This document shows, piece after piece, positions 47,788 through 52,295 of a stretch of 64,000 nt of DNA. The position numbers and the translations under genes are program-made. The DNA is from Thermococcus thioreducens (lineage in GTDB: Archaea > Methanobacteriota_B > Thermococci > Thermococcales > Thermococcaceae): positions 1,116,001-1,180,000 of the forward strand of contig NZ_CP015105.1 of assembly GCF_002214545.1 (NCBI RefSeq), given 5' to 3'. Below the pieces are notes generated by a model. That model saw only the letters and a list, made by a program, of their open reading frames with translations. It was not told the DNA's origin and searched no databases. Numbering within the stretch: the first letter of the stretch is position 1; the number at the start of each line of letters is the position of its first letter.

Positions 47788-47830
47788 TTTTTAAACTAAA
47801 CTGGCATATGTAAGTTAAAACATACATATG
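47788..47830 (+). promoter_or_regulatory. promoter and 26-bp operator of the DUF4405 operon
   Basis: A TATA-like TTTTTAAACT lies at 47788-47797. CATATGTA (47805-47812) and TACATATG (47823-47830) are perfect inverted arms around a 10-bp A/T-rich spacer. The transcript should start near 47818, inside the dyad, which suits a repressor. The same layout recurs at 50326-50368. Confidence 0.72.
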
Positions 47831-47841
47831 TTGGTGATAGT

Positions 47842-47907
47842 ATGATTAGGTTCGGCGCGATCGCCGGAAAGCTCTACAGGATAAAATGCCGTGGGAGGTG
47901 CCGGTGA
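47842..47907 (+). CDS. 21-residue basic peptide, translationally coupled
   Basis: A very short frame from ATG 47842 with GGTGAT 3 bases upstream. It encodes 21 residues, seven of them Arg or Lys, with two Cys in KCRGRC. Its stop TGA overlaps the ATG of the next gene, and that gene's ribosome binding site lies within the small frame. It could be a leader peptide that controls translation of the DUF4405 gene, or a genuine small protein. Confidence 0.45.
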   Translation: MIRFGAIAGKLYRIKCRGRCR

Positions 47908-48614
47908 TGGCAAGGTGGACGGCTCCAGCATGGCTGAGGGGCACAATAGACCTCGTCCTCACCATAGTGTTTGTAATACTTGCCGTATCCGGGATAGCCC
48001 TCTACCTGGCACCATCGGGAAGGATAGCGGACACAATAGGATGGACGTTTCTGGGGCTGGACAAGGATACATGGACAAACGTACACACGTACATGGGCTT
48101 TGCCATGATAGGACTTATAGCGGCACACCTGATAATAGGCTTCAGAAGCATGCTCACCATGCTCAGAATGGGCTTCAGGCAGAGCAGGTGGAAGCCAGCA
48201 GTGGCTTTTCTGCTCACCATGGGGCTCGTCCTCGGCGGATTCCAGGCGTACAAGGCGTACTTCACGGAGGAAGACTCAACGGAGAGCACCGATTATGTCG
48301 CCTATCTCCCGAGTGAGACCAACGACACAACCTACACGTACGTGGAGATAACCGGCTCAATGCTGAAGACGTACACCCTCCAGCAACTGGCGGACATCTA
48401 CGGCGTCTCGGCCGATGAGCTGGCAGAGGTGCTGAAGGAGGACTACGGTATTGAGGCCAAGACCGACGAGCTGCTTGAGGTCATAGAGGCCAACAACGGA
48501 CTGGATCGCGAAGTGTTCAAGGAAGAACTGGCTTCGGCCATTGAAAAGCTCCTTGGAATAAGCAATGCTGAAACCAACACCACGTCGGAAACAGCGGAAG
48601 GGGGTGAAAGCTGA
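47907..48614 (+). CDS. DUF4405-type membrane protein with C-terminal soluble domain
   Basis: A 235-residue protein from ATG 47907, with GGGAGGTG 6 bases upstream. Residues 10-120 hold three hydrophobic segments with conserved-looking His in NVHTYMGFAMIGLIAAHLIIGF. This fits the DUF4405/cytochrome-b561-like group, where such His residues bind haem. The last 110 residues are soluble and helical (QLADIYGVSADELAEVLKEDYG, DREVFKEELASAIEKLLG) with a Thr/Asn linker before, so this part is probably external. Haem binding is inferred, not shown. Confidence 0.7.
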   Translation: MARWTAPAWLRGTIDLVLTIVFVILAVSGIALYLAPSGRIADTIGWTFLGLDKDTWTNVHTYMGFAMIGLIAAHLIIGFRSMLTMLRMGFRQSRWKPAVAFLLTMGLVLGGFQAYKAYFTEEDSTESTDYVAYLPSETNDTTYTYVEITGSMLKTYTLQQLADIYGVSADELAEVLKEDYGIEAKTDELLEVIEANNGLDREVFKEELASAIEKLLGISNAETNTTSETAEGGES

Positions 48615-48838
48615 TGGGACCATATTTCTCCCAGTACATCTACGCCGAGACACCTGGATATGTGGCATATCTGAGCATAGCCCTCTGGCTTGTCCTCCTC
48701 GCAGTGGTGGCCATCTCGATGTACAGCCTCAGCAAGAGCCTCAACTCCCTGCTCTGGGAGATGAGGGAGATAAACGCCGCCGCCCTTGAGCTGATGAACG
48801 AGACCAGCGACGTGGAGAAGATACTGGAGGAGGTGTAA
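48614..48838 (+). CDS. single-helix membrane protein with coiled-coil tail, 74 aa
   Basis: A 74-residue protein. A short N-terminus is followed by one membrane helix (LSIALWLVLLAVVAISMY) and a helical, heptad-like tail (SLNSLLWEMREINAAALELM to VEKILEEV). The start ATG overlaps the stop of the DUF4405 gene. A related 65-residue protein lies at 52098-52295, with the same order (helix, Met-rich turn, coiled coil, -LEEV end). These may form a heteromer with the other membrane proteins. Confidence 0.7.
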   Translation: MGPYFSQYIYAETPGYVAYLSIALWLVLLAVVAISMYSLSKSLNSLLWEMREINAAALELMNETSDVEKILEEV

Positions 48839-48839
48839 A

Positions 48840-48855
48840 GGGGGTATCTCCCCCC
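48840..48855 (+). terminator. G/C hairpin after the first envelope operon
   Basis: GGGGG (48840-48844) and CCCCC(C) (48850-48855) flank TATCT right after the stop. The U-run expected for termination is weak, so it may mainly mark the mRNA end. The rest of the gap to 49073 is A/T-rich with the next promoter (TTAAATAT, about 49031-49038) and nothing else I recognise. Confidence 0.45.
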
Positions 48856-49073
48856 ATTCTACCACAACTATTTTCAGAAAATCCGGTTTTCTATATTCTC
48901 CCCCCAAACCGCTTCTTAAACACAGATAAACGATGAATAACGTTGTTTAACGGTAAAAATCGAAAAAAGGCAGGAAAAGCCGCTTCAGTAAACAAGCATG
49001 AATTTAAGCACATGGTTTCGTGAAAAAAGCTTAAATATTGCTTTTCTCATAGAGACCATTGAGGTGAAGGGCC

Positions 49074-50261
49074 ATGATGTGGAAAAAAGGCGTTGCATTG
49101 CTCTTTGGTTTGATGCTCGTGGCAACCACACTCTCCTTCGGCAAAGTGATGGCCGAGGACACCTCAGTGACAGTGATACTTGTCAGCGACAACGAGGCTG
49201 ACTGTGCCTTGGCTCAGTATTTGGCTAATGTGACTGGTGCTGTGGTTGTGACGACCACGTGGGGCGTTTATGATCCTAACGTTACGGCGGAGATTATGAG
49301 CTACGCTCCGGACGAGGTCATCATAATTGGGGGACCAGATGCTGTGGTTGAGCAGTATGTGGCTGACCTTGAAGAGCTCGGCATAACCGTTGAGCGCTGG
49401 GGAGGTCAAAACAGATATGAAACAAACCTCATGGTAATGGAACAGGCAAAACTCAAATTCAAACTCATGTTCAACAACAGCGTGATAATAACCCCCGGAA
49501 ACGACAGCGCAGCCATCAGGGCCGCGCTCAGGATGGCAGTTCGCAGAAAGGCTATGATAGCCTTCGTCAACGACACCTCAAACATAACCAAGCTCATGCT
49601 GAAGCTCCAGTTAAGGAACGCCAACGTAACCATCGTGCAGACCCCGGTTATGAGCAAAGTGATGCTCCACATAAGGGAACAGCTTAGGGAGAAGATGAAC
49701 TGCAACTGCACCGAGATGGAGGTCAACATAACTGCCGAGACGGCACTTGAGGCCATCAACGCGAGTGAGGAGAGAATAACCACAGCCAAGGAGATGCTGG
49801 AGAACGTGACTCTAAGCCCACCCGAGGAGCGGCTCGCCACAAGGATGCTGAACCTTGCCGAAAAGGAACTGGAGAACGCCAAGGATGCCTACGAGATGGG
49901 AAGGTACGGGAAGGCATACGGACAGGCCATAGCGGCAAAGGCCCATGCAGAGTTCGTTATCAGAATGGCCTCTGACAGATGGAGCGTAGAGATACAGACC
50001 AACATGACTATGAGGGCAGAGATGTACGTCTGGAGGCTTGAGAGGCAGATTATGGTAATGGAGAAAAGCGGGTTCAACACCACCGAGCTCAGGGCACTGG
50101 TCGACCAGCTCAAGGAGGCCATAAAGAACGGCGACTACGATGCCATAGATTCAATAATGCAACAGATAAGGGAAAAGCTCCTTGAGCTCTATGCCAACGG
50201 CAGGGGCAAGTTTAGAGAGCGCATGGTGTTCCCCGCCCATGGCAGACACGGCAGACCGTAA
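49074..50261 (+). CDS. secreted cell-wall-binding-repeat protein with helical C-terminus
   Basis: A 395-residue exported protein. The signal peptide is MMWKKGVALLFGLMLVATTL with a cleavage region near residue 28. Residues 30-210 show the cell-wall-binding repeat 2 pattern (APDEVIIIGGPDAVV, VERWGGQNRYETNLMV, VIITPGND). The remaining half is helical with many N-glycosylation sequons (NVT, NDT, NCT, NIT). In archaea these repeats occur on surface-layer proteins. It has its own promoter and lies between the two dyad-controlled units. Confidence 0.78.
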   Translation: MMWKKGVALLFGLMLVATTLSFGKVMAEDTSVTVILVSDNEADCALAQYLANVTGAVVVTTTWGVYDPNVTAEIMSYAPDEVIIIGGPDAVVEQYVADLEELGITVERWGGQNRYETNLMVMEQAKLKFKLMFNNSVIITPGNDSAAIRAALRMAVRRKAMIAFVNDTSNITKLMLKLQLRNANVTIVQTPVMSKVMLHIREQLREKMNCNCTEMEVNITAETALEAINASEERITTAKEMLENVTLSPPEERLATRMLNLAEKELENAKDAYEMGRYGKAYGQAIAAKAHAEFVIRMASDRWSVEIQTNMTMRAEMYVWRLERQIMVMEKSGFNTTELRALVDQLKEAIKNGDYDAIDSIMQQIREKLLELYANGRGKFRERMVFPAHGRHGRP

Positions 50262-50325
50262 CACCTCTTCCCATTTCTTCTTTAGTTTGAATTGAACAAT
50301 TCCTCCGGGCTCTTCTAACCGAAAA

Positions 50326-50368
50326 CTTTATAAGATCTCGCACATATGTAATATTAAACTTACACATG
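50326..50368 (+). promoter_or_regulatory. promoter and 26-bp operator of the DUF2202 gene
   Basis: The TATA box CTTTATAAG lies at 50326-50334. CATATGTAA (50343-50351) and TTACACATG (50360-50368) are inverted with one mismatch. The dyad is the same length and half-site type as that at 47805-47830, and the transcript should start inside it (near 50355). Confidence 0.72.
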
Positions 50369-50383
50369 TAGGAGGTTGAGACC

Positions 50384-51196
50384 ATGAGGAAGATATGGTT
50401 CGGAATTGGGCTGATAGCCCTGCTGGTGGGAATGTCCATCGGGGCGGTTTCAGCGTACATGGGGACCCCAGGACCTAACCCGTACGCATCCCAAACAACC
50501 GCCCCGGCGACGAGCAGTACCCTTGACACTTACTACTCAGACCTGAGCCAGGAGGAGATAGATGGTCTCCTCTGGATGGTCGAGGAGGAAAAGCTCGCAA
50601 GGGACGTCTACCTGACGCTGTACGATCAGACTGGACTGGTGGTGTTCAGCAACATCGCCAACAGCGAGCAGATGCACATGGATGCCGTGTTGAACCTCAT
50701 TGAGAAGTACAACCTGACCGCTCCGGACACACTCGACCAAGTGGGCGTCTTCCAGAACGAGCAGCTCCAGAACCTCTACAACCAGCTTGTCGAGATGGGA
50801 AGCCAGAGCGTTGTAGATGCCCTCAAGGTTGGGGCACTGATAGAAGAAACCGACATAGTGGATCTTCAGGAGAGGATAGCCCAGACCGACAACGAGGACA
50901 TAAAACTCGTCTATGAGAACCTCATGACCGGAAGTGAGAACCACCTCAGGGCCTTCGCGGGCCAGCTTGAGGCCTACGGGGTGACCTATGAGCCGCAGGT
51001 TGTGAGTGAGGACTACTACCAGAGCGTTATCGGCACAACACCCAGCCACGGGTACGGAGGTCACGGCATGATAGCAGCCCAAGGGCAGGCGGGAGGAATG
51101 CAGGAATGGGGCATCATGGCGGGTATAGCCAGCGCCTTCAGGCACGCCTGGGCGTGGATGAACGGGCTCGCCCAGAGGATTGGAACGCCCATCTGA
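50384..51196 (+). CDS. secreted DUF2202 ferritin-like protein
   Basis: A 270-residue exported protein with signal peptide (FGIGLIALLVGMSIGAVSA). The DUF2202 four-helix domain spans about residues 50-205. Candidate metal ligands are in VEEEKLARDVY, NSEQMHMDAV, LIEETDIVDL and TGSENHLRAF, the E/ExxH spacing of ferritin-like proteins. The C-terminus is Gly/Met-rich and ends near AWAWMNGLAQR. DUF2202 proteins are thought to bind iron or act in redox stress; the activity has not been determined. A 26-bp dyad marks its promoter. Confidence 0.8.
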   Translation: MRKIWFGIGLIALLVGMSIGAVSAYMGTPGPNPYASQTTAPATSSTLDTYYSDLSQEEIDGLLWMVEEEKLARDVYLTLYDQTGLVVFSNIANSEQMHMDAVLNLIEKYNLTAPDTLDQVGVFQNEQLQNLYNQLVEMGSQSVVDALKVGALIEETDIVDLQERIAQTDNEDIKLVYENLMTGSENHLRAFAGQLEAYGVTYEPQVVSEDYYQSVIGTTPSHGYGGHGMIAAQGQAGGMQEWGIMAGIASAFRHAWAWMNGLAQRIGTPI

Positions 51197-51240
51197 AGCT
51201 TTCTTTTTATTCCTAACTAATCCACAATGGGGGGTTGGTG

Positions 51241-51543
51241 ATGGAAGCTAAAGCCTGGCACTTCGTTGAGTTTGGTGAGTTCCCAGTTGAAGAGATCGAT
51301 GTTGAGGAGGTGAGGGACGACGCGCTGGAACTTCTCGGGCGCGTGACCGTTGAGAGGTACGAGACATCACGCGGGACCGTCCTCAAGCTCGTTGATGAGC
51401 ATGGAAACTACATCGGAAAAGTTGTCGGGGGCTGCTCTTTGGAGAAGCTCTCCATCGGGAGTGCCTACCAGACCCCATTTGGGATAAAGGTGACGCTGGA
51501 CTGCGGCGAGAGCGTTGTTGGTTGGCTCTACCTGGAGGGATGA
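51241..51543 (+). CDS. hypothetical protein, 100 aa
   Basis: A 100-residue protein with no family I recognise. It is beta-rich in its second half (LKLVDEHGNYIGKVVGG, GIKVTLDCGESVVGWLYLEG), with an N-terminal WHFVEFGEF strand and a conserved-looking pair of Cys. No signal peptide. ATG 51241 follows GGTTGGTG; GTG 51235 is an alternative. It is part of the wHTH-linked cluster and could bind a ligand or metal, but this is unsupported. Confidence 0.55.
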   Translation: MEAKAWHFVEFGEFPVEEIDVEEVRDDALELLGRVTVERYETSRGTVLKLVDEHGNYIGKVVGGCSLEKLSIGSAYQTPFGIKVTLDCGESVVGWLYLEG

Positions 51544-51545
51544 CG

Positions 51546-51722
51546 ATGCCAAGATGGTTTGGAGGCCCAATGATGCGGCCCGGCTTTGGAAGAAGAGGAC
51601 TCTGGTGGATGTGGTGGGGCTTTGGAATATTTGCCATATTCCTTCTCTTCGCCCGCATTGCCCTACTGCTGCTCCCCCTCGTGCTCCTTGGTGCCCTGCT
51701 TTACGCCTTCCTGAAGCACTGA
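51546..51722 (+). CDS. small membrane peptide, 58 aa
   Basis: A 58-residue protein with an N-terminal Met/Gly/Arg-rich segment (PRWFGGPMMRPGFGRR), a Trp-rich patch and one long hydrophobic helix (WMWWGFGIFAIFLLFARIALLLLPLVLLGALL). GGAGG stands 7 bases before ATG 51546. Probably a single-pass membrane subunit of unknown partner. Confidence 0.6.
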   Translation: MPRWFGGPMMRPGFGRRGLWWMWWGFGIFAIFLLFARIALLLLPLVLLGALLYAFLKH

Positions 51723-51752
51723 TTCGAAAGCTTTTTATTTCTCCCCGCCAAC

Positions 51753-51760
51753 TTATGTAA
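51753..51760. promoter_or_regulatory. half-site TTATGTAA at the regulator's own promoter
   Basis: TTATGTAA lies about 25 bp after the TATA-like CTTTTTATTT (about 51731-51740), so it covers the predicted transcript start, as the full dyads do upstream. No second arm is visible. It may allow autoregulation. Confidence 0.4.
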
Positions 51761-51798
51761 GAGCCTGCTGCCCTATGGAAGGTCAAGAGTGATGTAAG

Positions 51799-52095
51799 AT
51801 GGTCGAGAGCATACAAGAGATAACAGTGATTGCAGAGGCCCTGAGCTCTCCCGTGAGGGTGAAAATACTCAAAATGCTCTGCGAAAAGGAGTGGTATGTC
51901 TATGAGCTGGCTAAGAGCCTCGGCATTTCTCGCCAGCTGCTCTACCTCCATCTCAAAAAGCTCGAAAAGGCCAACCTAGTCGAGAGCGAGCTCCGTCTGG
52001 AGCCCAACGACCCCAGGGCAAAGAAGTACTACCGGGCAAAGCCGTTTAAGTTCGTCGTTGATAATGAGACCATAAAGAACCTTAAGGAGGTGTGA
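51799..52095 (+). CDS. winged-helix (ArsR-like) transcriptional regulator, 98 aa
   Basis: A 98-residue winged-helix protein. EALSSPVRVKILKMLCEKEW is the first helix pair, ELAKSLGISRQLLYLHLKKLEKANLVESEL is the recognition-helix region, and a beta-wing follows (KKYYRAKPFKFVV). There is one Cys in helix 2 and no metal-binding Cys pair, so metal sensing by a classic ArsR site is not supported. It is the only regulator in the 47.8-52.3 kb cluster and thus the best candidate to bind the 26-bp dyads there. Confidence 0.85.
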   Translation: MVESIQEITVIAEALSSPVRVKILKMLCEKEWYVYELAKSLGISRQLLYLHLKKLEKANLVESELRLEPNDPRAKKYYRAKPFKFVVDNETIKNLKEV

Positions 52096-52097
52096 TG

Positions 52098-52295
52098 ATG
52101 CCATACGCATCGACCCCGAGCGGGTGGATAAGCATAATCCTCGGGCTCATTCTGATAGCGATAATGGTCTTCGCATTCTACCAGATGAACAAGACACTCG
52201 GGGAGCTCAAACTTGAGCTTGCCCAGCTGAGGAACACACTGGAGGAGACCAAGAGACACACCGAGGAAGTCAAGAAGAAGCTTGAGGAAGTCTGA
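52098..52295 (+). CDS. single-helix membrane protein with coiled-coil tail, 65 aa
   Basis: A 65-residue protein: one membrane helix (WISIILGLILIAIMVFAFYQM) and a heptad-patterned charged tail ending KKLEEV. ATG 52098 has GGAGGTG 5 bases upstream, and the ribosome binding site overlaps the regulator's stop. It resembles the 74-residue protein at 48614-48838. Its stop is 1 base before the next gene. Confidence 0.7.
   Translation: MPYASTPSGWISIILGLILIAIMVFAFYQMNKTLGELKLELAQLRNTLEETKRHTEEVKKKLEEV

Follow-up and report, generated by a model that had tools for sequence, protein, structure and literature searches.

A conserved 26-bp dyad joins a predicted envelope regulon of Thermococcales, with a winged-helix protein as its likely reader

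A 26-bp inverted repeat of the form CATATGTAA-N8-TTACATATG stands at two promoters of a Thermococcus thioreducens locus and recurs across Thermococcales, where it is almost certainly a genuine and conserved operator. The genes that it precedes probably form one dyad-joined regulon, and the winged-helix protein of 98 residues encoded in the same locus (wHTH) is, to judge from sequence comparison, very probably the protein that reads it. This view, already advanced in an earlier note on the locus, is strongly supported by co-occurrence, operon linkage and conservation across phyla. Unnamed genes of hyperthermophiles are thereby drawn together into a defined regulon for which the operator is known exactly, a regulator can be proposed and a few targets are predicted. 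They also raise a puzzle, namely the presence of a haem-binding membrane protein and an exported ferritin-like protein in archaea without known haem synthesis.

The dyad and the genes of the locus

The window analysed here is a stretch of 64,000 nucleotides of the T. thioreducens genome. When up to three mismatches are allowed, it contains two dyads, against 0.06 expected from shuffled sequence; their positions and mismatch counts are exactly those first given. The features of the locus are listed below in window coordinates.

47788..47795, + strand: TATA box TTTTTAAA of the DUF4405 promoter, read from the sequence, starting 17 bp before dyad 1
47805..47830, unstranded: dyad operator 1, CATATGTAAGTTAAAACATACATATG, with perfect arms, kept in the close relatives L007-L013
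47842..47907, + strand: leader small ORF MIRFGAIAGKLYRIKCRGRCR of 21 codons at 47842-47904, the first ORF of the DUF4405 promoter, starting 11 bp past the dyad
47907..48614, + strand: DUF4405 (half b561-like) membrane protein with a C-terminal extension (Pfam DUF4405)
48614..48838, + strand: small transmembrane (TM) and coiled-coil protein, paralogue of the protein at 52098-52295 (shared blastp cluster)
49074..50261, + strand: secreted CWB2-domain protein (Pfam CW_binding_2, 29.6 bits, cut-off 24.9)
50327..50334, + strand: TATA box TTTATAAG of the DUF2202 promoter, read from the sequence, starting 16 bp before dyad 2
50343..50368, unstranded: dyad operator 2, CATATGTAATATTAAACTTACACATG, with one mismatch
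50384..51196, + strand: exported DUF2202 ferritin-like protein (Pfam DUF2202, 203.7 bits, cut-off 22)
51241..51543, + strand: c100 family protein, cytosolic form (family alignment); secreted forms are predicted regulon members elsewhere
51546..51722, + strand: GW57, a small Trp/Gly-rich membrane protein of conserved position in the locus maps, part of the ancestral operon
51753..51781, unstranded: tentative degenerate operator of the wHTH promoter, made up of two direct half-sites at a spacing of 20 bp, kept in split-operon relatives
51799..52095, + strand: wHTH, a 98-aa winged-helix (ArsR-like) regulator and predicted dyad reader (Pfam HTH_5, dyad co-occurrence, operon linkage)
52098..52295, + strand: partner protein CC, with one TM (hydrophobic) segment and a C-terminal charged coiled coil, directly after the wHTH gene

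The identities first proposed for the DUF4405, CWB2, DUF2202 and winged-helix (ArsR-type HTH_5) genes all lie above the Pfam cut-offs (DUF4405, 59 bits against 26.7; wHTH with HTH_5, 50.4 bits against 22). No dyad was found at the CWB2 promoter in a genome-wide scan, and this gene is therefore not a predicted regulon member. The scan, covering 2.07 Mb with at most three mismatches, gave eight dyad places. Four of these are strong (0-1 mismatch), two in the window and two outside it: at genome position 631316, a dyad precedes the gene of a 102-aa protein ('c105') adjoining gcvPB, and at 1221327 another precedes that of a secreted 153-aa protein ('c100'). A chance origin of the dyads is ruled out by the shuffles and by a reversed-pattern control.

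Immediately past dyad 1 lies the leader ORF; its stop codon and the start of DUF4405 overlap (TGATG), and its distance from the dyad falls within the usual range of the regulon (8-24 bp). Leader ORFs of the window's clade have 21-36 codons and a conserved C-terminal IKC[RK]GRCR, and they too start 11 bp past the dyad; the overlap with the DUF4405 start is found in most members. Given this conservation, fixed distance and frequent overlap, the leader ORF is probably translated, and its product is possibly a metal-binding microprotein.

Conservation of the dyad and assignment of its probable reader

A survey of 94 Thermococcales genomes for CATRTGTA-N10-TACAYATG, with at most one mismatch, returned 127 dyads, spread over 64 genomes; the reversed-pattern control gave a single match. 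A wHTH orthologue is present in 61 of the 94. The conservation that the earlier note proposed to look for in other Thermococcales was thus found, and the dyad tracks the regulator: 59 genomes have both and 28 neither, with five having the dyad only and two wHTH only. Fisher's test gives p of about 1e-16 with genomes treated as independent and shared ancestry ignored; since genomes do share ancestry, this value is descriptive only, and since dyads and wHTH move as one linked module, part of the co-occurrence reflects linkage and shared descent. The dyad-only genomes were rejected as counter-examples: in G048, G049 and G058 the contig stops inside or just past the operon start, and in G077 and G080 the match is an asymmetric single-arm one (CAAGTGTATGGCACCGCTTACATATG), evidently due to chance. 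The two wHTH-only genomes (G010 and G064) are incomplete assemblies.

In 41 of 52 loci, wHTH lies within a dyad-led run of genes on the same strand, and in all 52 the CC gene is found directly 3' of it, mostly after a gap of 1-3 bp. The ancestral order, according to about 100 inspected regions, is dyad, DUF2202, c100, GW57, DUF4405, second DUF2202, wHTH and CC; the window's clade has it in split form, next to the RLI (ABCE) gene. Genes for an aldehyde:ferredoxin-oxidoreductase-like (AOR-like) protein and an aldo-keto reductase often stand beside the operon in relatives (L122-L178), without a dyad of their own.

Outside Thermococcales, in four Archaeoglobales records, the dyad, matched at 15-18 of 18 positions, stands ahead of a gene for a c100-like secreted protein, with wHTH and CC further on; DUF4405 lies between the c100-like gene and wHTH in two of them, and a DUF2202-like gene takes its place in a third. 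Four records of Bathyarchaeota carry the dyad (14-15 of 18 positions) 37-82 bp upstream of wHTH and its TM partner. A single record of Thermoactinomycetaceae, from a metagenome-assembled genome (MAG; L239:1287-2319), shows a perfect dyad (18/18), then genes for a COX1-like haem-type membrane protein of 127 aa, wHTH and a TM coiled coil; this bacterial operon may reflect transfer or an ancient module, and contamination of the MAG is also possible. A core of the recognition region, HL[KR]KLEKA, is common to all compared wHTH homologues in the alignment. Because regulator and dyad occur together in other archaea and in one bacterium, wHTH is very likely the dyad reader. In Thermococcales, Archaeoglobales, Bathyarchaeota and a bacterium alike, regulator, operator and membrane partner are conserved, which suggests an envelope-sensing switch that is old or readily transferred.

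Related pairs have dyads of other types. A paralogous wHTH/TM pair of Thermococcales, 38% identical, has dyads of the ATGTAAT-N6-ATTACAT type at its own promoter; some of these promoters (among L306, L307, L308, L313, L314 and L319) have a second inverted repeat, ATGTTATCAAGTGATAACAT, after the dyad. Actinobacterial pairs of wHTH and a small TM protein (L240, L242, L245, L246, L247) are preceded by another dyad, CATGCCAATAATAGTTGGCATG, about 60-69 bp before the match start.

The ArsR-type winged helix is common to wHTH and to regulators of the ArsR family (PDB 2p4w, BigR, SdpR). Unlike these, wHTH always has a TM coiled-coil gene next to it, falls below the curated metalloregulator cut-off (NCBIfam HTH_metalloreg, 47.6 bits against 55) and has no metal-sensing cysteine pair. 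Neither a metal- nor a thiol-sensing pair was found in the wHTH alignment; the one cysteine of the window protein is absent from the aligned homologues of Archaeoglobales and Bathyarchaeota and from the bacterial one. In a protein with no recognisable metal-sensing cysteines, the signal is not readable from the sequence.

Promoter geometry and predicted mode of control

The observation that each dyad begins about 17 bp past a TATA box was borne out by measurement (17 and 16 bp), and of 99 scored orthologous promoters, 86 have a TATA box that starts 16-17 bp upstream of the dyad. On the other side, the start codon generally follows the end of the dyad by 10-17 bp. Of the 105 distinct promoter sites, 97 have an in-frame start codon 8-24 bp past the dyad, and in 62 the distance is exactly 15 bp; among the eight exceptions, six belong to DUF4405 in the window's clade. 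The alignment of sites yields the consensus ACCgAAAAcTTTATAAA - about 8 nt - CATATGTAATATTaAAnTTACATATG - GAGGTGA - ATG. With the TATA box at such a distance, the transcription start would lie under any protein bound to the dyad, an arrangement that points to repression.

The wHTH promoter departs from this layout. The half-site previously noticed there (TTATGTAA, 51753-51760) is present, but it does not have the same spacing, lying about 21 bp from the TATA start and not 17. Two direct half-sites can be read at this promoter, TTATGTAAG at 51753-51761 and CTATGGAAG at 51773-51781, and a layout of this kind with a spacing of 20 bp is seen by eye in other lineages too. At wHTH promoters of split operons (L123, L168-L171, L222, L237 and the window), direct half-sites replace the dyad, where they would perhaps provide weak autoregulation.

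Taken as a whole, the model in which wHTH acts as a repressor that is dedicated to a small envelope regulon and also regulates itself, with signalling through CC and with iron or oxidant targets, has a good chance of being correct. A wHTH dimer would bind CATATGTAA-N8-TTACATATG over the transcription start and so block RNA polymerase; the comparative data argue strongly for the predicted binding, and the position of the dyad makes repression by covering the start likely. In most Thermococcales, the regulator is the last-but-one gene of the operon that it would control; the operon of the window's clade has split into DUF4405, DUF2202-c100-GW57 and wHTH-CC transcripts. The membrane-anchored CC, made together with wHTH, would bind it and relay a signal from the envelope; that CC holds or signals to wHTH is a tentative proposal, which their invariant adjacency suggests. 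Derepression would release the exported DUF2202 protein, the membrane DUF4405 b-type cytochrome and the small exported c100 proteins, which, judging by their families, may act on iron or oxidants at the cell surface. More speculatively, wHTH and its TM coiled coil could be a two-gene switch of transcription that is widespread in archaea and shared by some bacteria. In it, a cognate membrane coiled coil would hold or release a soluble ArsR-like repressor, in a sigma/anti-sigma-like manner and in response to the redox or metal state of the envelope; each pair would have a dyad of its own.

Other readings of the dyad are less likely. Another, unlinked transcription factor might read it, wHTH-CC being merely a member of the regulon, and the presence of only degenerate half-sites at the wHTH promoter of the window's clade would fit such a reader; this is improbable, however, as wHTH presence tracks the dyad, as the records of Archaeoglobales, Bathyarchaeota and Bacillota have wHTH-CC and the dyad without the whole gene set, and as related dyads stand at the own promoters of paralogous pairs. 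It is also unlikely that wHTH binds the dyad as an activator or as a dual regulator dependent on redox or metal: some archaeal regulators do activate transcription, but archaeal activators usually bind upstream of BRE/TATA, whereas the dyad lies downstream of TATA, over the expected start, at a nearly fixed spacing. An inverted repeat beside the start codon could finally work in RNA as a hairpin of the 5'-UTR, and this explanation is hardly credible: the bases themselves are fixed in the arms, not pairing alone, and a TATA box at -17/-16 places the expected start inside the dyad, so that the RNA would contain no more than its 3' half.

Targets, previous descriptions and possible function

Four families make up the predicted regulon: the ferritin-like DUF2202 proteins, the b-type cytochromes of the DUF4405 family, and c100 and c105, both of them small and new. 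Unlinked dyads precede only genes of DUF2202 paralogues (which at these sites often have lipobox-like N termini), secreted c100 and c105. Full-strength c100 matches (E < 1e-30) are confined to regulator-bearing genomes, except for G048, where the operon contig is truncated. The regulator-negative genome G032 keeps the c105-gcvPB synteny and has no dyad, and DUF2202 was not found in 19 regulator-negative genomes by a search run without an internal positive control. The c100 and c105 proteins are small and consist mainly of beta strands; their models are fairly confident (AlphaFold pLDDT 84.5 and 79.2, respectively), but no match to the PDB reached E 0.001.

Two histidines of DUF4405, H60 and H74, are conserved in 90% of 40 homologues, including those of Archaeoglobales, and are predicted haem ligands. 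DUF4405 proteins of other organisms, including a bacterial one, bind haem b, and FezC, related to the DUF4405 cytochromes, belongs to iron-storing ferrosomes (PMC11334425). The Pfam DUF4405 domain and conserved histidines are common to these proteins and that of the window, which differs in the half-size (two-helix) haem domain and in a host order without known haem synthesis. The haem b synthase AhbD falls below the cut-off in 94/94 Thermococcales genomes, and haem-synthesis genes are absent from the seven Thermococcales surveyed elsewhere (PMC3004389); a working cytochrome is hence hard to reconcile with these hosts unless haem is scavenged. The DUF2202 protein is related to the solved MJ0754 (E 5e-57; PDB 3q4o and related entries), with which it shares the whole DUF2202 domain and from which it differs by a signal-peptide-like N terminus and by dyad control. 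Among 91 sequences, at least 99% keep its residues E95, H98, E154, E155 and H187, and likewise E67-69, a motif that served to select these sequences; we infer that the conserved acidic and histidine residues act as ligands.

The gene set was thought to be undescribed, which does not hold, as its neighbourhood was published in 2015 by Makarova et al. (PMC5898192). In Thermococcus CL1, the DUF4405 (arCOG04002) neighbourhood CL1_0239-CL1_0246 includes two ferritin-like arCOG03957 proteins and the ArsR-family regulator arCOG01679, and iron-dependent electron transfer was proposed for it (PMC5898192). Genes for DUF4405, ferritin-like, secreted and coiled-coil proteins and an ArsR regulator are common to both loci; that of the window differs by its several transcripts and by the lack of AOR and aldo-keto reductase. 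An adjacent AOR and NADP-dependent oxidoreductase occur in many relatives but not at the window locus. The same paper reports no dyad or operator, regulon, unlinked targets, cross-phylum pairing of regulator and membrane protein, or bacterial occurrence (PMC5898192). In the freely searchable literature, neither the dyad nor the regulon was found described, and the same holds for the unlinked targets, the leader ORF and the wHTH/membrane pair. Searches for expression data by motif letters, locus tags and arCOG numbers led only to the 2015 paper (PMC5898192), and no DUF2202 or ferritin term occurs in a paper on the T. barophilus secretome, nor a ferritin, DUF or cytochrome term in one on cadmium.

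As to function, the envelope electron-transfer or metal/oxidant system suggested in the earlier note is plausible. From the families concerned, the best guess, a tentative one, is that the products deal with iron or oxidants at the envelope, ahead of, although not far above, other envelope redox roles. The main competitor is a chain in the envelope that would pass electrons to extracellular acceptors, for respiration or iron reduction, in place of stress or iron handling. Bacterial DUF4405 proteins work in transmembrane electron transfer (PMC11334425), AOR and aldo-keto reductase genes often adjoin the operon, and the published proposal is similar (PMC5898192). Such a chain is nonetheless doubtful, given that the mapped loci show no multihaem cytochrome or flavinylated partner (no ApbE flavinylation partner was seen there), that AOR is missing at the window locus and known haem synthesis in Thermococcales, and that DUF2202 genes are the most numerous targets.

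DUF4405 matches are interrupted by stops or split in six genomes (G005, G025, G044, G050, G089 and G090), a pattern which suggests that this member has decayed repeatedly.
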